DNA from: Bacteroidia bacterium
GTDB lineage: Bacteria > Bacteroidota > Bacteroidia > Chitinophagales > UBA2359
Length of the DNA: 64,000 nucleotides
Assembly (NCBI GenBank): GCA_030427245.1
Contig: JAUHXA010000009.1
Coordinates: 98,438 to 162,437, forward strand
Reading direction: 5' to 3'
Position numbers and translations under genes: made by a program. Shown here piece by piece: positions 5,785 through 62,153 of this stretch (position 1 is the first letter of the stretch; each line of letters opens with the position of its first letter). The notes below the pieces were generated by a model that worked only from the letters and a program-made list of their open reading frames with translations, had not been told where the DNA came from and did no database searches.

Positions 5785-5878
5785 ACCAAAGCGAATCAAC
5801 AAAATGATTACAGGAGTTAGCCGAAAATCCTTCAATAGAGTAGGCAGAAATCTTTTAACCTCATATAATTATTTTCTA

Positions 5879-8616: not shown

Positions 8617-8710
8617 ACCAAAACGAATCAACAACATGGGAGATAGCCGAAAATCCTTCAATAGAGTAGGTGTAAATTATTAATACCTTATAACTTAAAT
8701 TTTTTTTCCA

Positions 8711-41514: not shown

Positions 41515-44500
41515 ATGTCCAAAAAAAATCTCTATGCTCTATTAGTTGGCATCAATCAATATGACCAACGCAGTGTCTCCAACCTCAGAGGATGTGTCAA
41601 TGATGTAGAAAATATAGAAAAATACCTCCTAAAACGGTTTGACAATCCCGATATCAAAACCTTGAAAGACCAACAAGCCACCTACCAAAACATCATTCAA
41701 ACCTTTAGAAGCCATCTCACTGCAAAGGCAACCAAAGACGATGTGGTATTTTTTCATTACAGTGGACATGGCGCAAGAGAAATTGCAGCCACTGAGTTCA
41801 AACCCTTTTTTCCAGAAGGTAGAGAAGAAACTTTGGTCTGCTACGATAGCCGAAAGCCAGGCGGCCACGATTTGGCAGATAAGGAACTAGCGGTACTCAT
41901 CAACGAAGTAGCCCAAACGGGAGCACATGTAGTGATTTCCTTGGATTGTTGTCATTCGGGTTCAGGTACTCGCAATACAGATGACATTTATTTGGGAGCC
42001 ACTCGCAAAACCTATGACCGGCACGATACAAGACCACTGGACACCTATATAGATGGCTACTATCAGCAGGAATTGAAGGATACAGGTAAGGTAGTCATTC
42101 CGCAAGGCAAGCACTTACTTTTGGCGGCTTGCGACCGAAAAGAACTTGCCAAAGAAACCAGAACCCATCAAGGCGTTTTTACAACCACTCTGTTGGAAAC
42201 ACTCGAAAAAGCAAAAGGTGAAATCAGTTATGCGGATTTGTTTTTGAAGTGTCGAATCAACATTGTCAATCAAGCATTGAAGCAAACACCGCAGTTTGAA
42301 GCCATTAGTCACTTCAATGCCCATAGCAAGTTTTTGGACGGGCAGGACATGGCGGACATTGACCGAAAAGAAGTGCATTATGAAGACGGTGAATGGGTCA
42401 TCAATTATGGAGCAATTGACGGTTTGGAAATCACCGACGATTTTGTACCAGTTTTTGAAATATATTCCCAAGCAGATGGAACAGAGGCATTGGGGACTGC
42501 TCACGCAAAAGAGATTTACCCAGAAAGAACCTTCTTAGACTTAGACTTCAGGGTACGAACCATGACCCGTTTTTATGCCAAACCCATCAGCTTACCCGCC
42601 CCCAAAATGGCGGTTTATGTGCATGGGGAAGAAGAAAGTGTACTGCGCTTCAAAGAAAAGGAAACGGATTTTGTGAATGTCTTGTTCGCCGATTCGCTAA
42701 GGGGAACAAAGTACAACATTGAAGTGAAAGAAGACGGGATTTATACCTACTTCAATCACTCGAATCAACTCATTCAGGGATATGAAAACGATTTTTTTGA
42801 CAACAACGTAAAATTCACCATTGACCTATTGGCACATATTCTTCGATGGGAAAATGGTATCAGCCTTCAAAATAGAAATACCCAACTCCAAGAAGAAAAA
42901 ATAGAATTTTATATAACCGATTCCAATGATGAGAAAATTCTCAGCGATAGAGAAGTCGCAAAAGAACGTGGAGAAGCCGTTGAAGAAACCGATTTATCCG
43001 ACTTTTTTACGCTTTACCTCGATAAAGATTCTCCCAATGGAATGGTGAAAGTGAATGTAAAAGCGGAACATCACTATCCCCAAAAACTGTATTTCGCTTT
43101 GGTCTATTTCTCCGAAGAATTTGAAATTGCGGTCTATCGAAACGAGCCAATGGATAAAAACAGCGGTGTGATTACTCTTTGGGGAGAAGGTGAACACGAT
43201 TTTTTGTGGTTGGAAGATGAAGACGAATACCACGACATTTTCAAGTTGGTGGTCAGTACCGAACCTATCCAAGATTTTTTGCTGCAACAAAGTCGCATTA
43301 AACTGGGCGAAATCAAAAGATCTCCACGAAGAACAGGCAACAATCGAGGCATAACTCTTCGCTCCAATGACTGGCTCACTAAAACCGTTCACATTCGATT
43401 GTTGAAGCGCAAAAACAAGGTAAAAGAAACGCCTACCAAATTGGGCGATAAAAACACATTGGTCATTGGTGGACACCCTGATTTTCAAGCCAAGTTGAGC
43501 CTATCCGCAGCCCAAACCAATAGCCGAAATGTGGATGATATTTACACAATAGCACAGGTGTTTTCGCAGCAAAATGGAGAGATGTTGTCCTTTGGAGCGA
43601 GTCATGGGCACAATGGAAATGTATTGGTTCTAAACGAAATAGATGCCGACGAAAGCCTCAAAGAACAGCCTTTGGAGATTGATGTAAATGTAGCAACCGA
43701 CAAAGACGAAATGATTTTGTCGTTTACGATGGACGATGGAGTTATTGTGCCGATAGGGCAAGCACAGACAGCAGAGGATGGAAGCAGCACCAAGATTGTC
43801 ATTGACGAAATTCCCAATATTGCATATCCCGATCAAAAGCGCAGCCTGAAAAAAGCCTTGAAGTTGGTCTTTTTCAAGTTTATGAAATGGGAGGACAAAA
43901 CGCAGCAATTGCGAAAAGTGATTTATCACGAAGATGGAACGGCAGAACGTAGCAGCGAAGGGGTAAAAGAAGCTGTAGAAAAAGCTGATTCCATTTTACT
44001 ACTGGTGCATGGCATCATTGGCGATACACAGCAGATGGCAGAGGCTTTTCGGGCTGCAATTGATTCTGAAAAATACGATTTGGTCTTGACCTATGATTAC
44101 GAAAACCTCAATACTTCGATTATAGATACAGCCGATTGGCTCTACAATAAGTTGGTGAACGAACTAAAACTGCCCCAATCCCCTGACAAAAAACTGGACA
44201 TTGTGGCACATTCGATGGGTGGTTTGGTGTCTCGCTACATGATCGAAAAGTTGGGCGGCGACCAAATGGTGAATCACCTGTTTATGTGTGGTACCCCCAA
44301 CAATGGTTCGGCTATTTCGGAAGTGCCACATTACCGCAATATGTTGATTACCTTGCTGACGTTGGGCATCAATTTTGGATTGGCGATTCCGTGGGTAGCG
44401 GGTTTGGTAGGGGTGTTAGACAGAAGTAAAAAACTAACCCTAACCTTGGAGGAAATGCGAACAGAGGGAACGTTCATCCCCAAACTGCGCATCACTCCAC

Positions 44501-44781
44501 AGCCCAAAACGACTTATAGCATTATTGCGGGAGATTTGGGGGCATATCGAGACAAGTCGGATGAATATACTCAAGGGATTGTCAATAAACTGCTCAACTA
44601 TGTCAGTAGAACCTTTTATGGAGATGCGCCCAACGACATTGCAGTGAGTGTAAACAGCATTCAAGGAATTTCGCATTTTGACCAGCCCAAACCCAAAAAA
44701 TTGGAAGCAGCTTGTCACCACATGAATTATTTCACAGAAGATGGCGGTTTTGAAGTAGTTCGGAAAGAGATTGGATGTTAA
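41515..44781 (+). CDS. Caspase-like (C14) protease fused to an alpha/beta-hydrolase (lipase/esterase)
   Basis: This is a 1088-residue protein without a signal peptide. Residues 1-270 are a metacaspase-type C14 domain: start YALLVGINQYDQRSVSNLRG, catalytic His85 in FFHYSGHGAR and Cys146 in VVISLDCCHSGSG. The middle about 550 residues are beta-rich with charged segments; I recognise no named domain. Residues about 810-1088 are an alpha/beta hydrolase of PGAP1/lipase type: ILLLVHGIIGDTQQMAEAF, nucleophile Ser900 in IVAHSMGGLVSRYM and MCGTPNNGSAIS. Two hydrolytic activities in one chain suggest a regulated effector, with the caspase perhaps releasing the lipase (inference). It stands alone next to toxin cassettes. 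Confidence 0.9.
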   Translation: MSKKNLYALLVGINQYDQRSVSNLRGCVNDVENIEKYLLKRFDNPDIKTLKDQQATYQNIIQTFRSHLTAKATKDDVVFFHYSGHGAREIAATEFKPFFPEGREETLVCYDSRKPGGHDLADKELAVLINEVAQTGAHVVISLDCCHSGSGTRNTDDIYLGATRKTYDRHDTRPLDTYIDGYYQQELKDTGKVVIPQGKHLLLAACDRKELAKETRTHQGVFTTTLLETLEKAKGEISYADLFLKCRINIVNQALKQTPQFEAISHFNAHSKFLDGQDMADIDRKEVHYEDGEWVINYGAIDGLEITDDFVPVFEIYSQADGTEALGTAHAKEIYPERTFLDLDFRVRTMTRFYAKPISLPAPKMAVYVHGEEESVLRFKEKETDFVNVLFADSLRGTKYNIEVKEDGIYTYFNHSNQLIQGYENDFFDNNVKFTIDLLAHILRWENGISLQNRNTQLQEEKIEFYITDSNDEKILSDREVAKERGEAVEETDLSDFFTLYLDKDSPNGMVKVNVKAEHHYPQKLYFALVYFSEEFEIAVYRNEPMDKNSGVITLWGEGEHDFLWLEDEDEYHDIFKLVVSTEPIQDFLLQQSRIKLGEIKRSPRRTGNNRGITLRSNDWLTKTVHIRLLKRKNKVKETPTKLGDKNTLVIGGHPDFQAKLSLSAAQTNSRNVDDIYTIAQVFSQQNGEMLSFGASHGHNGNVLVLNEIDADESLKEQPLEIDVNVATDKDEMILSFTMDDGVIVPIGQAQTAEDGSSTKIVIDEIPNIAYPDQKRSLKKALKLVFFKFMKWEDKTQQLRKVIYHEDGTAERSSEGVKEAVEKADSILLLVHGIIGDTQQMAEAFRAAIDSEKYDLVLTYDYENLNTSIIDTADWLYNKLVNELKLPQSPDKKLDIVAHSMGGLVSRYMIEKLGGDQMVNHLFMCGTPNNGSAISEVPHYRNMLITLLTLGINFGLAIPWVAGLVGVLDRSKKLTLTLEEMRTEGTFIPKLRITPQPKTTYSIIAGDLGAYRDKSDEYTQGIVNKLLNYVSRTFYGDAPNDIAVSVNSIQGISHFDQPKPKKLEAACHHMNYFTEDGGFEVVRKEIGC

Positions 44782-52915: not shown

Positions 52916-53116
52916 ATGATTCACGTTCGATACAATGGTCAATCTTACGATATCAACCGTCAAAACCTTCGACTAAACGGCAATCTATCTGCCCAAGCTG
53001 TCAAGCAAGCAGTTGCTCAATACCTCGAAGTCGGCACAAACCAACTACAAAATTATGTGGTAGATTTTCGACCAAGTGGTGATATCATCGTGCGACCCGA
53101 AGCTGTATATGGATAA
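52916..53116 (+). CDS. 66-residue ubiquitin-like-sized protein of unknown function
   Basis: The sequence MIHVRYNGQSYDINRQNLRL to DIIVRPEAVYG suggests beta-beta-helix-beta (strand IHVRY, helix AQAVKQAVAQYL, strands YVVDFRP and IIVRPEA). This is the size and order of small ubiquitin-like folds and ends in Gly, but I cannot assign a family. It is the last protein gene before the RNA array, suggesting but not proving membership of the same module. Confidence 0.6.
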   Translation: MIHVRYNGQSYDINRQNLRLNGNLSAQAVKQAVAQYLEVGTNQLQNYVVDFRPSGDIIVRPEAVYG

Positions 53117-53402: not shown

Positions 53403-53646
53403 CAACATCGCACCCCAATCGTTGAAGCTTACATACTTTCTGATTGAAAATCAAGGTGTCGCAGGTTCGAGTCCTGCCAACTCCACTACAATAAAAAAGC
53501 GATTTATCTTAGCCACTCTAAGTACCTTCAATGGAAAAGTACGATAAGAGCGCAGGATAAGTCGGTCAAAGACATGGAGTTGTAGCTCAGTAGGTAGAGC
53601 ACTTAGTTATACCGCTTTTACAACTTGTGCGAGACGTTGTTTTTTT
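53403..53646 (+). ncRNA. Y-like scaffold RNA 1 with a circularly permuted tRNA-Phe(GAA)
   Basis: The outer stem CAAC-TCGCAC (53403-53413) pairs with GTGCGA-GTTG (53627-53639), followed by seven T. AAGC (53425-53428) pairs with GCTT (53614-53617). After the constant TTACATACT comes the tRNA 3' part: anticodon loop TTGAAAA (GAA at 53446-53448), T arm GCAGG/CCTGC (53461-53477), acceptor strand CAACTCC (53478-53484), A485. A 90-nt linker follows. Then comes the 5' part: GGAGTTG (53576-53582), D arm GCTC/GAGC (53585-53600). GGAGTTG and CAACTCC pair perfectly. The tRNA halves are therefore in reversed genomic order, broken between D and anticodon arms, and the scaffold helix sits at the break. Confidence 0.85.
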
Positions 53647-53657
53647 CAAGATATTTT

Positions 53658-53784
53658 ACCGCATCCCAACAGTCAAAGCTTACATACTAGCTCAATTGGT
53701 AGAGCAATGGATTGAAGATCCGTTTGTCGCAGGTTCGATCCCTGCGTATGACACACGCTTTTACAACTTATGCGGTATTTTTTT
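53658..53784 (+). ncRNA. Y-like scaffold RNA 2 with nested tRNA-Phe(GAA)-like body
   Basis: ACCGCAT (53658-53664) pairs with ATGCGGT (53770-53776), followed by a T-run. AAAGC (53675-53679) pairs with GCTTT (53757-53761). Inside, in normal order: constant TTACATACT, D arm GCTC/GAGC, anticodon arm ATGGA-TTGAAGA-TCCGT (GAA at 53714-53716), T arm GCAGG/CCTGC and GTATGAC. The acceptor stem is reduced to CATAC/GTATG, whose 5' strand belongs to the constant scaffold, so the tRNA-like body is stacked on the long helix rather than having free ends. Confidence 0.85.
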
Positions 53785-53873
53785 ATTAGAGTTATATGAG
53801 TTCAAAAAAACTCATACACCTAAATACATAAATGCAATTATCAACTTAAACACATAAAAACAAAATAAAAAAA

Positions 53874-54128
53874 CAGCTTCGCACCCTCACCGTCAAAGCT
53901 TACATACTGTTTCGACTTTTAATCGAGAGGCCGTAGGTTCGATTCCTACCAGTTCCACAAAAAGATAAGAACGGCGCATCCTCGTTTTCTCCTTGTAGGG
54001 AACACATAACAAATTCCTACAAGTCAGCAACAGGATACGTCATCAATGATAAAAATGGGACTGTAGCTCAGTGGTAGAGCATTCTTAGTAACAATGCTTT
54101 TACAACTTGTGCGAGATGCTGTTTTTTT
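53874..54128 (+). ncRNA. Y-like scaffold RNA 3 with a circularly permuted tRNA-Lys(TTT)
   Basis: CAGC and TCGCAC (53874-53884) pair with GTGCGA and GCTG (54109-54121), then seven T. AAAGC (53895-53899) pairs with GCTTT (54096-54100). First comes the anticodon arm with loop CTTTTAA (TTT at 53918-53920), T arm GTAGG/CCTAC, acceptor CAGTTCC (53950-53956), A957. A 99-nt linker (53958-54056) contains a strong hairpin CTTGTAGG/CCTACAAG. Then come GGGACTG (54057-54063) and D arm GCTC/GAGC. The acceptor pairs fully with one G-U at position 3:70, the alanine identity pair. Same break point as RNA 1. Confidence 0.85.
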
Positions 54129-54213: not shown

Positions 54214-54287
54214 GGGTTCTTGTGGTAGCCAGGACATCCTGCCTGACTGTCTATCAGGCGACACGGGTTCGAATCCCGTAGGACCCG
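54214..54287 (+). tRNA. tRNA-Asp(GTC)
   Basis: Acceptor GGGTTCT/AGGACCC, anticodon arm CCTGA-CTGTCTA-TCAGG, T arm ACGGG/CCCGT, discriminator G. The D arm (TGTGGTAGCCAGGACATCC) is atypical and pairs poorly. CCA is not encoded (GCAA follows). No scaffold arms flank it. Confidence 0.85.
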
Positions 54288-54380
54288 CAATATTACTGTA
54301 TGTTCGTGTGCCTAGGTGTTTACGTGTATTAAACATAAACACAACTATCAACACAAACACTCAAACACAACAAAAAAAAT

Positions 54381-54452
54381 AGCGGGGTAGAGCAGCGGTA
54401 GTTCGCTTGTCTCATAAGCAAGAGGTCGTGGGTTCGAGTCCCACCTCCGCTA
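54381..54452 (+). tRNA. tRNA-Met(CAT)
   Basis: Acceptor AGCGGGG/CTCCGCT with one G-U, D arm GAGC/GTTC, anticodon arm CTTGT-CTCATAA-GCAAG, T arm GTGGG/CCCAC. No initiator features (no GGG/CCC anticodon stem). It could also be an Ile-CAU (lysidine) tRNA. CCA is not encoded. Confidence 0.85.
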
Positions 54453-54480
54453 CAATTAATTAACATTGAAGAAATAAAAA

Positions 54481-54616
54481 TCATTGTATCCCAACGTGTA
54501 AAGCATACATACTTGCCAAACTGGTATAGGCGACGGAGTGCAAATCTGTTGAACGAAAGTTCATTGTGGGTTCGAATCCCACGTAATAACACACGCTTTT
54601 CTGACTTGTACAATGA
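54481..54616 (+). ncRNA. Y-like scaffold RNA 4 with nested class-II-like tRNA body, Cys(GCA) anticodon
   Basis: TCATTGTA (54481-54488) pairs perfectly with TACAATGA (54609-54616); AAAGC (54500-54504) with GCTTT (54595-54599). The outer stem sequence differs from other copies yet stays paired. Inside: D arm GCC/GGC, anticodon arm ACGGA-GTGCAAA-TCTGT (GCA at 54540-54542), a long variable arm GAAC-GAAA-GTTC, and T arm GTGGG/CCCAC. The acceptor is almost lost (TAC/GTA). A Cys anticodon with a long variable arm is abnormal for tRNA-Cys. The 3' T-run is weak (TTATTTA). Confidence 0.8.
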
Positions 54617-54765
54617 TTATTTATCACAGATTTCGTAGATAACGCTGATGATACACAGATACTTAAAAACCTAAACACAAAATTAACACAAGTACAGTTA
54701 CCAACATAAACACCTAAAAACCTAAACACAACTATCAACTCAAACACCCAAACACAACAAAATAT

Positions 54766-54843
54766 AGTGGAGTAGCGCAGTTAGGTTAGCGCATCTGGTC
54801 TGGACCCAGAGGGCCGTAGGTTCGAATCCTACCTCTGCTACCA
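54766..54843 (+). tRNA. tRNA-Pro(TGG)
   Basis: Acceptor AGTGGAG/CTCTGCT with two wobble pairs, D arm GCGC/GCGC, anticodon arm TCTGG-TCTGGAC-CCAGA, T arm GTAGG/CCTAC. CCA is encoded (54841-54843). Position 33 is C rather than the near-universal T. Confidence 0.8.
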
Positions 54844-54885
54844 AAGAAAATTAATATTAACTAATCAATTCAAAATCATTCAACA

Positions 54886-55053
54886 ATGAAAAGATTACTA
54901 TTACAATTGTGGGGAAAAATCAAAGTTTTTCTTGCTTCTCACCCCAAGCCAGAAGAGTTCAAAGAATGGGAACCTGGTCACAAAGAAAGAGAGGTTTACA
55001 AGCAAGAAAAAGCCAAATGGAAAGCATTGCAGTATATCAATATGCTCTTCTAA
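54886..55053 (+). CDS. 55-residue basic protein inside the tRNA array
   Basis: MKRLLLQLWGKIKVFLASHP to WKALQYINMLF: a short amphipathic N-terminus, then a charged helix (GHKEREVYKQEKAKWKALQY). No family recognised. It starts 42 nt after tRNA-Pro and precedes the 275-residue gene, so it may belong to the same array-embedded transcript. A clear ribosome binding site is not seen, as is usual in this phylum. Confidence 0.5.
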   Translation: MKRLLLQLWGKIKVFLASHPKPEEFKEWEPGHKEREVYKQEKAKWKALQYINMLF

Positions 55054-55057
55054 AATT

Positions 55058-55152
55058 TAGATGGGAAGCAAGAGCAAAGAGGCAAGAAGTAAGAAAATTT
55101 TCCCAATAGAAATTGGTCTTACTTCCTGCTTCCTACATCTTGCTTCGTAAAA
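55058..55152. repeat. Palindromic intergenic repeat (MITE-like), copy 2
   Basis: Left arm GGAAGCAAGAGCAAAGAGGC and AAGAAGTAAGA; right arm TCTTACTTCCTGCTTCC and TCTTGCTTC, inverted. Same family as 14332-14540; half copies are at 53118 and 62322. Confidence 0.6.
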
Positions 55153-55162
55153 ACCTTCAATC

Positions 55163-55990
55163 ATGAACACACAAAATTTACAAAAACAGTTTGCCCGAAT
55201 CGGTGCAAAACTTCAAATAGAAGTCCAAAAACGAAAAGTAGCCGAAACATCTTTTAGCTTAGACATTGTAGAAAACGTCCGCAAGGAATACTTCAAACTG
55301 CAAGTTATTCAAGCACAAAAAGACAAAGAATTGGTGCTTTATGCTACGGATATTCAGCCAAAAATGAGGCATTTGATTTTGGTGGGTATCAATGAAAACA
55401 CCAATTTGAATCCAAAAAACAATGAGGTCCAAAAGTTTCTCTGTGGGCACGACGAACGGCATTGGTTTGCAGCTTCGGTAAGCAACAACATCACCAAAGT
55501 TCACCAAGCAATGGACGACCTCAAACCTATTGCAGTAACACAAGCATTGCAGCGAAAAGGTGTCAAATTGCAAAACCGAAACAAGCGACATAACAAAGCA
55601 TTTATTCGACAAGGTGAATGGTTTTTTGTTCCACAGCCCAAAATGGTACTACACAAAACCGAAAAATTCTTGACCCTCAAAAATGAACCTTTGAGACGAG
55701 CAGGAGGTGGAAAGCCCCACATCATTCAAGAGGTTTTCCGAACAGGTGGCACACAGGTATATGTTTGTCACAAATTTCCAGAAGGTTTGCTTACACCAGA
55801 ATACAAAGCTTACCTTCAAACCAATCCAAAGGCGAAGAAATGGAATTGGACGGTGATGCGTAGAAATCCAGGTGTGTATGCTCGTGGAACGGTCAAGCAT
55901 CTCGACCACGCTACGATTTACCTTCCGTGTTGGCACCAAGTCGTGATGAATACCGAATCACGTACAGAAAGCTTGGCATTCTTGGATTAA
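55163..55990 (+). CDS. 275-residue protein of unknown function encoded within the tRNA array
   Basis: This is a basic cytoplasmic protein, with no signal or membrane helix. The N-terminal half is alpha/beta (LQIEVQKRKVAETSFSLDIV, ELVLYATDIQPKMRHLILVG), then the distinctive VQKFLCGHDERHWFAASVSN, and a basic middle ALQRKGVKLQNRNKRHNKAF. GEWFFVPQPKMVLHK and HIIQEVFRTGGTQVYVCHKF follow, with Cys/His residues near PCWHQVVMNTESR. I do not recognise the family. Its location between scaffold RNAs 4 and 5 and its basic, Arg/Lys/His-rich character suggest an RNA-associated protein (inference). Confidence 0.75.
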   Translation: MNTQNLQKQFARIGAKLQIEVQKRKVAETSFSLDIVENVRKEYFKLQVIQAQKDKELVLYATDIQPKMRHLILVGINENTNLNPKNNEVQKFLCGHDERHWFAASVSNNITKVHQAMDDLKPIAVTQALQRKGVKLQNRNKRHNKAFIRQGEWFFVPQPKMVLHKTEKFLTLKNEPLRRAGGGKPHIIQEVFRTGGTQVYVCHKFPEGLLTPEYKAYLQTNPKAKKWNWTVMRRNPGVYARGTVKHLDHATIYLPCWHQVVMNTESRTESLAFLD

Positions 55991-56072
55991 TCTTGATGAA
56001 ACTCCCGAGAAATCGGGACAAGTTGTGACAACGGCTGGAAGCCTTGTCAACAGTTGAAGAAAAATAAACAAA

Positions 56073-56202
56073 AACATCGCACCCCAACGCTGTAAAGCAT
56101 ACATACTAGCTCAATTGGTTAGAGCGTCCCGATAAGAATCGGGAAGGTTACAGGTTCAATTCCTGTGTTCAACAACACGGCTGTTCCAACTTGTGCGATG
56201 TT
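56073..56202 (+). ncRNA. Y-like scaffold RNA 5 with nested tRNA-like body and replaced anticodon arm
   Basis: AACATCGCAC (56073-56082) pairs perfectly with GTGCGATGTT (56193-56202). AAAGC pairs with GCTGT (one mismatch). Inside: constant CATACATACT, D arm GCTC-AATTGGTTA-GAGC, T arm ACAGG/CCTGT. Instead of a normal 7-nt anticodon loop there is CCCGATAAGAATCGGG, a self-complementary hairpin like the small CCCGAT/ATCGGG repeats at 14433, 56004 and 60650. No anticodon can be assigned securely. The 3' end runs into TTTCTTTATT. Confidence 0.8.
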
Positions 56203-56297
56203 TCTTTATTACAGATTTCTAAGATAACACTGATGACACACAGATATTTGGGTCTATGAATACATTTATCAACCCAAACACTCAAATACAAAAAAAT

Positions 56298-56372
56298 AGG
56301 TGAGTAGCTCAGTCGGTTCAGAGCAACGTCTTTACACGGCGAAGGTCATAGGTTCGAATCCTATCTTGCCTA
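56298..56372 (+). tRNA. tRNA-Val(TAC)
   Basis: Acceptor AGGTGAG/CTTGCCT with two wobble pairs, D arm GCTC/GAGC, anticodon loop TTTACAC on a CGTC/GGCG stem, T arm ATAGG/CCTAT. CCA is not encoded. Confidence 0.8.
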
Positions 56373-56393
56373 CAATACTTTCATTATCTTTTA

Positions 56394-56512
56394 TTTGTCA
56401 TGCTGTAAGCATCTTGTGGGTAGTTAGAGCAGGTTTGGAAAATAGACTAAAGTTTTGTGAAAGACAATAAGCCCAGTGTGTAAACCAAACAAGATTTCTA
56501 CGAAATGACAAT
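56394..56512. repeat. TTGTCATGCTG/ATGACAA intergenic repeat, copy 1
   Basis: It starts TTTGTCATGCTGTAAGCATC and ends CGAAATGACAA. The ends are short inverted repeats. A second copy is at 57072-57147. Confidence 0.6.
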
Positions 56513-56538
56513 TGAAGGAAAAAGACACAATCAAAAAA

Positions 56539-56612
56539 GCAGATATAGCATAGTGGTAATGTGAAGGTCTTCCACACCTAGGAGGAGAGTTCGATTCTCT
56601 CTATCTGCTCCA
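56539..56612 (+). tRNA. tRNA-Gly(TCC)
   Basis: Acceptor GCAGATA/TATCTGC perfect, anticodon loop CTTCCAC on AGGT/ACCT, T arm GAGAG/CTCTC, discriminator T, CCA encoded (56610-56612). Confidence 0.85.
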
Positions 56613-56670
56613 AATCAATAATTATTTGAACTTGAATTTGTACTTTGAAGTTGAGTTTGAATTTCACAAA

Positions 56671-56743
56671 GCTCCTGTGGGCAAATGGCTAAGCCACTGC
56701 ACTTTCTATGCAGTTATTGCGGGTTCGAGTCCCGTCGGGAGTT
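56671..56743 (+). tRNA. tRNA-Glu(TTC)
   Basis: Acceptor GCTCCTG/CGGGAGT with wobbles, D arm GGC/GCC, anticodon arm CTGCA-CTTTCTA-TGCAG, T arm GCGGG/CCCGT. Position 37 is T rather than a purine. CCA is not encoded. Confidence 0.8.
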
Positions 56744-56771
56744 CAAAATAAGAATGAGATTTTATTTCAAC

Positions 56772-56844
56772 GTTGGTGTAACTCAGCGGTCAGAGTGTTG
56801 CACTGTTAATGCAAGAGTCGTGGGTTCGAATCCCTCCGCCAACG
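56772..56844 (+). tRNA. tRNA-Asn(GTT)
   Basis: Acceptor GTTGGTG/CGCCAAC, D arm ACTC/GAGT, anticodon arm TTGCA-CTGTTAA-TGCAA, T arm GTGGG/CCCTC with one mismatch, discriminator G. CCA is not encoded. Confidence 0.85.
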
Positions 56845-56859
56845 CTAATTAAGAAAATC

Positions 56860-56933
56860 GGGTGTATAACTCAGATGGCTAGAGTAGCTGACTTTTAATC
56901 AGCGAGTCGTAGGTTCGAGCCCTACTACGCCCA
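56860..56933 (+). tRNA. tRNA-Lys(TTT)
   Basis: Acceptor GGGTGTA/TACGCCC with one G-U, D arm ACTC/GAGT, anticodon arm GCTGA-CTTTTAA-TCAGC, T arm GTAGG/CCTAC. CCA is not encoded. Confidence 0.88.
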
Positions 56934-56947
56934 CAAAAAGTAACAAC

Positions 56948-57059
56948 AGTCGCATCCCGACCGATAAAGCTTACATACTTTATAGGGCAGTATGTGTGGG
57001 AGAAAAACCCATCTACTGATAAGTTTTAAACGCTTTACCTACTTATGTGACTCATTTTT
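56948..57059 (+). ncRNA. Y-like scaffold RNA 6 with a non-tRNA insert
   Basis: AGTCGCAT (56948-56955) pairs with ATGTGACT (57045-57052, one G-U), then CATTTTT. AAAGC (56966-56970) pairs with GCTTT (57032-57036). After TTACATACT the body has no D, anticodon or T arm and no TTCGA loop. Instead CATACT pairs with AGTATG and TGGG with CCCA, giving two small hairpins. It is a complete scaffold without a tRNA mimic. Confidence 0.75.
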
Positions 57060-57071
57060 AGACTTTTTTCA

Positions 57072-57147
57072 TTGTCATGCTGAAAGCATCTTGGTTGTTG
57101 CTTCAACGAACTTGGATTATTAGCAACCAGGCTCTACGGAATGACAA
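57072..57147. repeat. TTGTCATGCTG/ATGACAA intergenic repeat, copy 2
   Basis: ATTGTCATGCTGAAAGCATC to ACGGAATGACAAA; a shorter relative of 56394-56512. Confidence 0.6.
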
Positions 57148-57172
57148 ATAAAGGTTTGGAGTTCTAAAAAAT

Positions 57173-57246
57173 GCTCTGGTAGCCCAATTGGCAGAGGCAA
57201 ACGGCTTAAAATCGTATCAGTGTGGGTTCGAATCCCTCTCAGAGTA
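57173..57246 (+). tRNA. tRNA-Leu(TAA)-like, short variable loop
   Basis: Acceptor GCTCTGG/TCAGAGT, D arm GCC/GGC, anticodon loop CTTAAAA on ACGG/TCGT, T arm GTGGG/CCCTC (one mismatch). The variable region is short, whereas cellular tRNA-Leu is class II. CCA is not encoded. Confidence 0.75.
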
Positions 57247-57324
57247 CTGGATTATAGTCATTCTACAGCAATGATAAATAAGGGTTTGCAATTGAGTTTT
57301 GAATTTGAGGTTGAATTTTAAAAT

Positions 57325-57398
57325 GCTCTGGTAGCCCAATCGGCAGAGGCATGCGGCTTAGACCCGTACCAGTGAGGGTTCGAATCCCTCTCAGAGTA
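57325..57398 (+). tRNA. tRNA-Leu(TAG)-like, short variable loop
   Basis: Near-copy of the preceding tRNA (same acceptor and D arm) with anticodon arm TGCGG-CTTAGAC-CCGTA and T arm GAGGG/CCCTC. Short variable loop. CCA is not encoded. Confidence 0.78.
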
Positions 57399-57485
57399 CA
57401 GATTTTGTGATTGGTTGAATAGTGATTCGTAACAGTTAGGTTTGAAATGACAAATCACCAGTCACCATTTACAAATCACTAAAAT

Positions 57486-57560
57486 AGGTAAGTAGCACAG
57501 CTTGGTTAGCGCATCGCTCTGATACAGCGAAGGTCATTGGTTCGAGTCCAATCTTACCTA
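57486..57560 (+). tRNA. tRNA-Ile(GAT)
   Basis: Acceptor AGGTAAG/CTTACCT perfect, anticodon arm TCGCT-CTGATAC-AGCGA, T arm ATTGG/CCAAT. D stem GCAC/GCGC has one mismatch. CCA is not encoded. Confidence 0.85.
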
Positions 57561-57618
57561 CTTCAATATGAAACTTTGACAACGGCTGCAAGTCTTGTCA
57601 ACAGTTGAAGCAACAAAA

Positions 57619-57692
57619 GCAGATATAGCACAATGGTAGTGCATCGGCATGCCACGTCGAAAATGAGCGTTCGATTCGTTCTATCTGCTCCA
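57619..57692 (+). tRNA. tRNA-Gly(GCC)
   Basis: Acceptor GCAGATA/TATCTGC perfect, D arm GCAC/GTGC, anticodon arm TCGGC-ATGCCAC-GTCGA, T arm GAGCG/CGTTC. CCA encoded (57690-57692). Two nt later scaffold RNA 7 begins, so they may share a transcript. Confidence 0.85.
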
Positions 57693-57693
57693 A

Positions 57694-57827
57694 AAAAATC
57701 GCATCCCAACCGAGGAAGCTTACATACTATTTGAGGAGTAGATACTCAACAGTCTTATAAACTGTGTACGCAGGTTCGATTCCTGCATAGTGAACCAAAC
57801 ACAGCTTCATCTACTTGTGCGATTTTT
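57694..57827 (+). ncRNA. Y-like scaffold RNA 7 with nested Ile(TAT)-anticodon tRNA-like body
   Basis: AAAAATCGCAT pairs with GTGCGATTTTT (57817-57827); AAGC (57716-57719) with GCTT (57804-57807). Body: acceptor-like TACTAT/ATAGTG, D arm TTGAG/CTCAA, anticodon arm ACAGT-CTTATAA-ACTGT (TAT at 57756-57758), T arm GCAGG/CCTGC, then GTGAACCA, so a CCA-like end is present inside the scaffold. The TAT anticodon is rare in bacteria, which usually read AUA with a lysidine-modified CAT tRNA. Confidence 0.82.
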
Positions 57828-57840
57828 CTTTATCAGATTC

Positions 57841-58065
57841 AGACTACGGTAGTATTTAGTCCCGAAAATAAGTTTTTAATATTCATGTCGAAGTTTGCAA
57901 GCAATATATTGGAACCCACCCCTGCCCCTCCCAAGAGGGGATTTCCTTACTCTGCACGAGTATTCCCCTCCTCGGAGGGGTTGGGGTGGGTTAAACCGTA
58001 CAAGTACATAGTTTGCAGAGGGATATTAATTATTTATTTGCTACACTATAAAACTACCGTAGTCT
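57841..58065. mobile_element. MITE-like element with 13-bp terminal inverted repeats
   Basis: AGACTACGGTAGT (57841-57853) and ACTACCGTAGTCT (58053-58065) are perfect inverted repeats bounding 225 bp. Inside is a second inverted pair (AACCCACCCCTGCCCCTCCC with GGAGGGGTTGGGGTGGGTT). No transposase is encoded. It lies between scaffold RNA 7 and tRNA-Lys(CTT). Confidence 0.6.
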
Positions 58066-58080
58066 AGAAGTTTTCAAAAT

Positions 58081-58153
58081 TGGCTCGTAGCTCAATCGGC
58101 AGAGCTGCTGACTCTTAATCAGTAGGTTGTGGGTTCGAATCCCTCCGAGCTAA
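58081..58153 (+). tRNA. tRNA-Lys(CTT)
   Basis: Acceptor TGGCTCG/CGAGCTA with one G-U, D arm GCTC/GAGC, anticodon arm GCTGA-CTCTTAA-TCAGT, T arm GTGGG/CCCTC (one mismatch). CCA is not encoded. It is the last tRNA of the dense array. Confidence 0.83.
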
Positions 58154-58168
58154 CTATAAATTAATATC

Positions 58169-58230: not shown

Positions 58231-59109
58231 ATGTTCAGTTTCTTCAAAAAAACAAATACAGTCTCTACTGCAATGACTGCAACAAAAAGCAGCCTTGAAG
58301 CGCAACTGAATCAGGTAGATATCTGCTTTGTGATAGACACAACAGGAAGCATGGGCGGTTTTATCAATGCAGCCAAAGCACAGTTATTGAAGGTATTGGA
58401 AAGACTATCAGCAAATAATGATGTGAATTTGCTAATTGGATTGGTGGAGTTCCGAGATCATCCACCACAAGACAAAAGTTTTGTGACAAGGATTTACCCT
58501 TTGACGGTTAACTTGAAGAAAATGCAAAAAAGCATCAACCAATTGAAGCCAGGTGGGGGTGGAGATGCACCCGAAGCGGTCTATCAAGGCGTTTATGATG
58601 CCTGCAATGAGATGAAATGGCGGAAACATAGTTACCGTTTTGTCTTATTGGTCGGAGATGCTCCGCCTCACGCTTTTGCGAAATGGTTGAAGGAAGTGAC
58701 AGGTGGAACGGAGAAATTTGCAAGTCATGGGGATGCTTGGTCGAATCAATGTCCAAGTGGTTTGGATGTCTATTCAGTGACTGCAATGGCAGAGCAAAAT
58801 AGGGTGAAACTCTATGGTCTTGCCATGACTGCACCTGCTGCCCAAGTGCCTTTTGAAGTGATGGCGAAAATGACTGGTGGAGAGTGTTTTTTGAGTAATC
58901 GAGGGGATGGAGTGATTGAGAAGATTGAAGCGATATTGAAGGGCGAGTTTGACAACTTGCATTTTGATAAGAAGGTTTTGGAGGCGATTACTGCAATGGG
59001 AAATGATGATTTCGAAGTGGAAGGTTTGGCGGAGGAATTGAAGGTGACGGTGAATGAGGTGGTGGCTTCGATTACGAGGTTGGGAAAACGTGGTTTTTTG
59101 GATGGCTAA
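58231..59109 (+). CDS. von Willebrand factor A protein with C-terminal winged helix
   Basis: This is 292 residues, cytoplasmic. The vWA domain (about 25-225) has the MIDAS motif CFVIDTTGSMGGFINAAKAQ (Asp36, Ser40), the Thr/Asp region GGGGDAPEAVYQGVYDACNE and YRFVLLVGDAPPHAFA. The vWA part resembles VwkA/alpha-kinase-associated vWA domains. The C-terminus (about 245-292: KKVLEAITAMGNDDFEVEGL then AEELKVTVNEVVASITRLGK) is a winged-helix-like domain. It lies directly downstream of the tRNA array and upstream of the TROVE-vWA gene, so it is a likely partner of that system (inference). Its 3' end is duplicated at 60040. Confidence 0.88.
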   Translation: MFSFFKKTNTVSTAMTATKSSLEAQLNQVDICFVIDTTGSMGGFINAAKAQLLKVLERLSANNDVNLLIGLVEFRDHPPQDKSFVTRIYPLTVNLKKMQKSINQLKPGGGGDAPEAVYQGVYDACNEMKWRKHSYRFVLLVGDAPPHAFAKWLKEVTGGTEKFASHGDAWSNQCPSGLDVYSVTAMAEQNRVKLYGLAMTAPAAQVPFEVMAKMTGGECFLSNRGDGVIEKIEAILKGEFDNLHFDKKVLEAITAMGNDDFEVEGLAEELKVTVNEVVASITRLGKRGFLDG

Positions 59110-60035: not shown

Positions 60036-60262
60036 ATCGTAGTGATTGAGAAGATTGAAGCGATATTGAAGGGCGAGTTTGACAATTTGCATTTTGATAA
60101 GAAGGTTTTGGAGGCGGTTACTGCAATGGGAAGTGATGATTTTGAAGTGGAAGGCTTGGCGGAGGAATTGAAGGTGGCGGTGAATGAGGTGGCTTCGATT
60201 ACGAGGCTGGGAAAACGTGGTTTTTTGGATGGCTAAACTGTTGTATGGCTGTATGGTTTTCC
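60036..60262 (+). pseudogene. Duplicated 3' end of the vWA gene
   Basis: The frame 60042-60236 encodes IEKIEAILKGEFDNLHFDKK to ASITRLGKRGFLDG, almost identical to the last 65 residues of the vWA protein, minus one Val. The similarity continues past the stop (CTAAACTGTTGTATGGCTGT). It cannot encode a vWA domain. It might be translated as an isolated winged helix, but is probably debris. Confidence 0.8.

Positions 60263-62153
<1,891 letters not shown>

Follow-up and report, generated by a model that had tools for sequence, protein, structure and literature searches.

Circularly permuted tRNA-shaped modules in a Bacteroidia tRNA array are probably parts of bacterial Y RNAs linked to a predicted Ro60-fold protein

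Results

Scaffold copies in a tRNA array

The window, by which we mean the whole stretch of 64,000 nucleotides that was analysed, contains seven copies of one RNA scaffold, which precede and interleave with a tRNA array (Table 1). The 13 ordinary tRNA genes of the array are those that remain of 16 ARAGORN calls once a tRNA-Ser (62375) and two modules of the scaffold (53681 and 57724) are subtracted. The two subtracted modules had been called as "tRNA-Phe" (53681-53754) and "tRNA-Ile(TAT)" (57724-57797).

Table 1. Coordinates of the scaffold elements, their parts and the associated genes in the window.
Feature	Position	Strand	Basis
Element 1: Y RNA-like scaffold holding a permuted module of tRNA-Phe(GAA) type	53409..53631	+	Left arm 53409-53437, right arm 53614-53631; ARAGORN after rejoining
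Element 1, 3' part (rest of the anticodon stem-loop, then T arm and 3' acceptor strand)	53442..53485	+	
Element 1, structured linker of 90 nt, caps acceptor stem	53486..53575	+	
Element 1, 5' part (5' acceptor strand, D arm, anticodon stem start)	53576..53604	+	
Element 2: scaffold with normal-order tRNA-Phe(GAA)-like module, acceptor replaced by scaffold helix	53660..53774	+	
Element 3: scaffold holding a permuted module of tRNA-Lys(UUU) type	53880..54113	+	
Element 3, 3' part of module	53911..53957	+	
Element 3, structured linker of 99 nt, caps acceptor stem	53958..54056	+	
Element 3, 5' part of module	54057..54081	+	
Element 4: scaffold with normal-order tRNA-like module, long variable arm	54485..54612	+	By eye and fold; no ARAGORN call
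Element 5: scaffold with degenerate normal-order tRNA-like module	56078..56197	+	Rfam tRNA 37 bits; no ARAGORN call
Element 6: scaffold with hairpin module, not tRNA-like	56951..57049	+	
Element 7: scaffold with normal-order tRNA-Ile(UAU)-like module, acceptor replaced by scaffold helix	57700..57821	+	
Ro60-fold gene, 482 aa: predicted helical-repeat ring and vWA domain	60705..62153	+	Fold match, linkage
66-aa protein, predicted beta-grasp-like fold, invariant C-terminal Gly	52916..53116	+	
13 ordinary tRNA genes lying among elements 4-7	54214..58154	+	ARAGORN

The scaffold consists of a left arm of approximately CGCAYCCC-N-AAGCWTACATACT and a right arm of approximately GCTTTTACAACTTGTGCG. The left-arm pattern occurs seven times in the window against a mean of 0.00 in shuffled sequence (none in 100 shuffles). 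An eighth match to the scaffold core, elsewhere in the genome and outside these seven pattern matches, lies inside what by eye appears to be an efflux-pump gene, and was set aside as a chance hit. The two arms are joined by a closing stem (5' CGYRC, 3' GYRCG) with a conserved 3' ACUU adjoining it.

The pairing of this stem is supported by covariation. All five closing positions are paired in 139 of 151 distinct scaffolds, a count that places no requirement on the outer arms. Pairs 3, 4 and 5 are formed in 144, 143 and 143 of the 151 scaffolds, respectively, compared with maxima of 117, 121 and 139 in 500 shuffles, and exchanges from C-G to T-A and from G-C to A-T are frequent among them. Pairs 1 and 2 are nearly invariant and are not above their shuffles in the same set of 151. 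Inner-helix positions that played no part in the selection also covary. We take these counts as support rather than proof, because related sequences inflate them.

Permuted order of elements 1 and 3

A preliminary description of the locus had presented elements 1 and 3 as two circularly permuted tRNA genes, and its account of their architecture was borne out. The 3' half of each tRNA shape precedes the 5' half, and the two are separated by linkers of the lengths described. When rejoined, the halves form complete cloverleaves, which ARAGORN calls as tRNA-Phe(gaa) of 73 nt and tRNA-Lys(ttt) of 72 nt, with full acceptors (GGAGTTG/CAACTCC and GGGACTG/CAGTTCC, paired at 7/7 positions with one G-U counted) and a discriminator A. 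A trimming scan across both inserts left the top answers unchanged, and no permuted tRNA was called by ARAGORN in 250 single-base shuffles (50 inserts, five shuffles each). The two breaks fall in a common region, as had been claimed: a single register in the anticodon stem, 29/30 in our own numbering, rebuilds both elements. For element 3 the break could also be placed at 26/27, because TTC stands on both sides.

The suggestion that the scaffold stands at the break was also borne out. The described structure of element 3 is present in its minimum-energy fold (z -3.44). For element 1 (z -2.50), an outer stem and the T arm, acceptor and D arm are seen in the centroid, whereas the minimum-energy fold differs and is without the inner scaffold helix. 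Ordinary genes for tRNA-Phe(gaa) and tRNA-Lys(ttt) are also present in the genome. The rejoined modules were compared with 38 distinct tRNAs, part of the complement of the genome, taken from 30 of its loci. Their nearest counterparts in that set are a Phe tRNA (76% identity) and a Lys tRNA (73%), respectively, and the modules are therefore not recent copies of those tRNAs.

Recurrence in other phyla

A pattern scan of a genome collection with one genome per species (84,980 species) yielded 88 loci, 43 of which contain the full scaffold according to a right-arm and pairing test. The remaining 45 loci, and all 13 loci found on viral contigs, failed this test and were dropped as chance matches. 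Cyanobacteria account for 41 of the 43 loci, Blastocatellia and Desulfococcaceae for one each, and the window adds the Bacteroidota; three pairs of loci come from the same organism (Trichocoleus FACHB-40, Scytolyngbya HA4215-MV1 and Laspinema D3b).

Among 145 distinct elements from 44 loci, ARAGORN recognized 66 as normal-order tRNAs, 15 as permuted tRNAs and 64 as neither. An independent filter for a T arm, an acceptor hairpin and the start of a D arm also gave 15 permuted elements, and picked up no element from the 66 in normal order. The acceptor stem is paired at 7/7 positions in 13 of the 15, although the filter demanded only six. Both orders thus occur among the relatives, and inspecting them left the described order of elements 1 and 3 standing. 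The permuted order is seen again in 13 elements of other genomes, which makes an assembly error improbable; the preliminary description had argued against such an error too. In these 13 elements the acceptor is capped by just 4-10 nt.

Other inserts resemble pieces of 23S rRNA. Nine of them share a core close to TAACGGTTCTAAGGTAG, and one of this type is 96% identical over 27 nt to a 23S gene of another cyanobacterium, a gene that scores 1475.8 bits with the LSU rRNA model. In locus L044, an insert is 86% identical over 50 nt to the 23S genes of its own genome. The regions imitated are presumably helices H69-71 and the GTPase centre. No exact match to the sarcin-ricin or the 16S decoding-site motif was found in the 145 elements. 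In the cyanobacteria, the modules on this RNA scaffold are tRNA shapes, whether normally ordered or scrambled, or else rRNA-like stretches. Inserts of at most 60 nt number 29.

A third type of insert, GGTGCGTA...TACGC.GCA, was seen in L056 (2710), L066 (6686), L074 (6434), L095 (6514), L121 (5162) and L124 (4629). It is the element nearest to ro60 in five of the six, the fetched piece of L095 being without the gene. Extra hairpins appear by eye in the T loops of elements in L061 (2442), L116 (3868) and L077 (418), for example GGGTACCCTTCGGGAACACCTTCGGTGAACAAATCCC in L077.

A predicted Ro60-fold protein linked to the scaffold

The product of the gene downstream of the array is predicted by a full-length model to adopt a Ro60-type fold, with a helical-repeat part followed by a vWA domain. 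Its identity to Ro60/Rsr structures is only about 13-16%. The Pfam TROVE model (PF05731) had no match in this protein or in this genome, while a Deinobacterium control was matched. Where a source names one of the 120 homologues listed, the name is hypothetical protein, vWA/VWFA protein or a bare label, and the nearest named homologue among the matches listed is from a Chitinophagales bacterium (92%).

The gene is linked to the scaffold. A Ro60-like gene is present in 33 of the 43 scaffold loci, the other ten being fetched pieces in which it is missing, compared with none of the 45 loci without the scaffold. The elements lie on the ro60 strand in 157 of 157 cases, and an element is found upstream of ro60 in 42 of 47 loci; the sole element of L169, a Bacteroidota locus, lies downstream of the ro60-like gene. 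The protein occurs without an element in four loci. L161 and L168 are weak tests of the linkage, since the former is a 5.4-kb contig and the gene reaches the contig end in the latter, while the ro60-like genes of L163 and L165 are shortened, the one in L165 having two stops.

Neighbouring genes

Two further families accompany ro60. In 31 of 47 loci, ro60 is preceded by the gene for the 66-aa protein, which ends in ...RPSGDIIVRPEAVYG and gave no match to Pfam. A ThiF/E1-like gene lies downstream of ro60 in nine of 47 loci, for example L164 (1155-1790) and L056 (6722-7354); these two members were tested and show sub-threshold similarity to PRTRC ThiF.

The window also encodes a 275-aa protein (55163-55990) without a confident family, whose sole relative among the fetched loci compared adjoins the ro60 of the other Bacteroidota locus, L169. 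A vWA-domain gene near ro60 (58231-59109) has its C-terminal end repeated in a fragment at 60039-60236, which suggests a duplication. Further away, three DUF805b RNAs score over the Rfam cut-off within 8 kb (1090-1125, 5811-5846 and 8637-8672), and the product of the gene at 41515-44781 is caspase-like (Peptidase C14), with a C-terminal part that resembles alpha/beta-hydrolases.

Discussion

Elements 1 and 3 are probably bacterial Y RNAs, in which a permuted tRNA-shaped module would be displayed on a predicted Ro60-fold protein and not be spliced into a tRNA. That a bacterial Y RNA can contain a permuted tRNA shape is already known. YrlA, as described in PMC8394870, is a Y RNA whose basal stem holds the Ro60-like protein Rsr and whose tRNA-like domain is built from a D, a T and an acceptor arm. 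In the same account YrlA connects Rsr with PNPase, and DusA and TruB act on it as modifying enzymes. Its structure superposes on tRNA by circular permutation, as described in PMC11472068, and the statement in the preliminary description that permuted tmRNA is the only such case among bacteria was therefore incomplete. Like YrlA (RF02553; structure 6CU1), the permuted elements have a closed basal stem followed by a T arm, a capped acceptor and a D arm, an arrangement found in elements 1 and 3 and in 13 relatives, and the candidate partner is, by its predicted fold, a Ro60 protein.

The 3' strand ACUUG before the closing stem is common to the YrlA consensus and the scaffold, whereas the remaining arm differs. 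The YrlA model scored 46.1, 35.2, 33.5 and 27.6 bits on four permuted relatives, below the gathering score of 69, and had no match to the elements in the window. A match by itself is weak, as the model also hits seven of 14 control genomes at E <= 0.001. It is therefore the gene linkage and the fold that carry the argument for a Y RNA. The scaffold furthermore differs from YrlA in that it comes in arrays of up to nine per locus, can carry 23S-like pieces or tRNA shapes in normal order as well, and has a putative partner outside Pfam TROVE. This partner shares the predicted helical-repeat part and vWA domain with Ro60/Rsr proteins such as Deinococcus Rsr (2NVO), but is missed by the TROVE model. 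Several features of the window count against the Y RNA reading: linkers far longer than the caps found elsewhere, a minimum-energy fold of element 1 that lacks the inner scaffold helix, 13 tRNAs separating the elements, and a ro60 gene that starts 2.9 kb past the last element, further than in most loci.

We also considered the possibility that elements 1 and 3 are tRNA genes after all, as was originally proposed. The scaffold would then have to be cut off and the two sides of the anticodon-stem break ligated into a circle, and RNase P and a 3' nuclease would take out the linker, to yield an extra tRNA-Phe and tRNA-Lys. The complete cloverleaves, full acceptors and discriminator A agree with this, and permuted tRNA genes in algae and archaea have the same order of 3' half, intervening sequence (1-74 bp) and 5' half, with maturation via a circle in the algae (PMC3978253). 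The permuted genes described in that source, however, need a bulge-helix-bulge junction and a eukaryal or archaeal tRNA-splicing endonuclease, whereas the junction here is a scaffold stem that is shared with hairpins and 23S-like modules and is linked to a Ro60-fold gene, a linkage that tRNA genes leave unexplained. Considering also the ordinary Phe and Lys genes and the low identity of the modules to the tRNAs of the genome, we find this explanation very improbable. A self-splicing permuted intron-exon arrangement was considered because the scaffold brackets the break, but was rejected, since the scaffold is merely about 60 nt long and brackets hairpins and 23S-like pieces as well.

Still less credible is the notion that the elements are non-functional tRNA pieces rearranged by recombination, in spite of the setting in a tRNA array, the degenerate module of element 5 and the lack of tRNA likeness in element 6. 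Debris would hardly show a scaffold conserved across phyla with compensatory changes, a strand shared with ro60 in every case and fully paired acceptor stems in nearly all permuted elements. A two-piece, permuted ssrA gene, in which the T arm and 3' acceptor also precede the 5' acceptor strand, has next to no likelihood. With the Rfam model RF04321, the T arm, linker and acceptor score 24.3 and 22.8 bits, short of its gathering score of 47, and the matches span no more than positions 36-95 of the 213 in the model. Nor does a tmRNA fit a pair of paralogues that have Phe and Lys anticodon loops, D arms of ordinary tRNA type and a shared Ro60-linked scaffold.

If the elements are Y RNAs, the modules may serve as tethers. 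The closing stem with its adjacent 3' ACUU would be the grip for Ro60. In elements 2, 4, 5 and 7 the tRNA shape is opened at the acceptor, which would expose the anticodon arm, while in elements 1 and 3 it is opened in the anticodon arm, which would expose the capped acceptor and T arm; the two openings could suit different partners, because opposite ends of the tRNA shape are left free. Each module might then recruit onto the Ro60 ring the protein that normally handles that part of a tRNA or of 23S rRNA, for example a nuclease, a modifier or a repair enzyme, and the array would provide several interchangeable tethers for one Ro60 in RNA quality control. A precedent is the Y RNA that links the Ro60-like Rsr to PNPase (PMC8394870). 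Taken alone, we give this putative tether function about an even chance. The broader picture is held a little more tentatively: a so far uncharted Ro60 system, in which a single ring would be served by Y RNAs from a cassette array, with swappable displays (acceptor-opened tRNA, anticodon-opened permuted tRNA and 23S pieces). These displays may offer the two ends of the L-shaped tRNA, together with ribosomal hotspots, to proteins that handle or attack RNA, and a ubiquitin-like protein and an E1-like enzyme may be coupled to the system.

The main functional rival to recruitment of proteins by the modules is that they act as decoys or sensors. They would mimic the parts of tRNA and 23S rRNA that are hit by RNA-cutting toxins, and either absorb the attack or report it via Ro60 and the ubiquitin-like and E1-like neighbours. 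Anticodon arms, acceptor ends and pieces of 23S are indeed represented among the modules, the two neighbouring families recur beside ro60, and the ThiF member in L056 matches the PADLOC models for E1-E2 defence systems (best E 3.5e-15). It has also been suggested that YrlA might be a competitive inhibitor of an anticodon nuclease, but in the work described there the Salmonella nuclease did not cut YrlA (PMC7790460). The two motifs sought, sarcin-ricin and the 16S decoding site, are absent as exact matches from the elements, and the PADLOC models gave no match to the Ro60-like, 66-aa, vWA or 275-aa proteins. We consider a decoy or sensor role unlikely. In the open literature that we searched, which did not extend to the main Y RNA papers, no report was found of Y RNA arrays that combine both topologies with 23S-like modules and a Ro60 protein missed by Pfam.

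Our findings assign what had been claimed as permuted bacterial tRNA genes to the Y RNA family, where they most likely belong. They also widen that family to one scaffold with two opposite tRNA topologies, rRNA-like modules and a Ro60 protein that Pfam misses. A practical implication is that tRNA gene finders seem to report Y RNA modules as tRNAs, as suggested by the Phe call at 53681, the Ile call at 57724 and the cyanobacterial modules called tRNA-Asn(att) and tRNA-Pyl(cta), and the tRNA annotations in such arrays are therefore likely inflated. Since a single genome offers several modules on one scaffold, the purpose of the modules in bacterial Y RNAs becomes testable.
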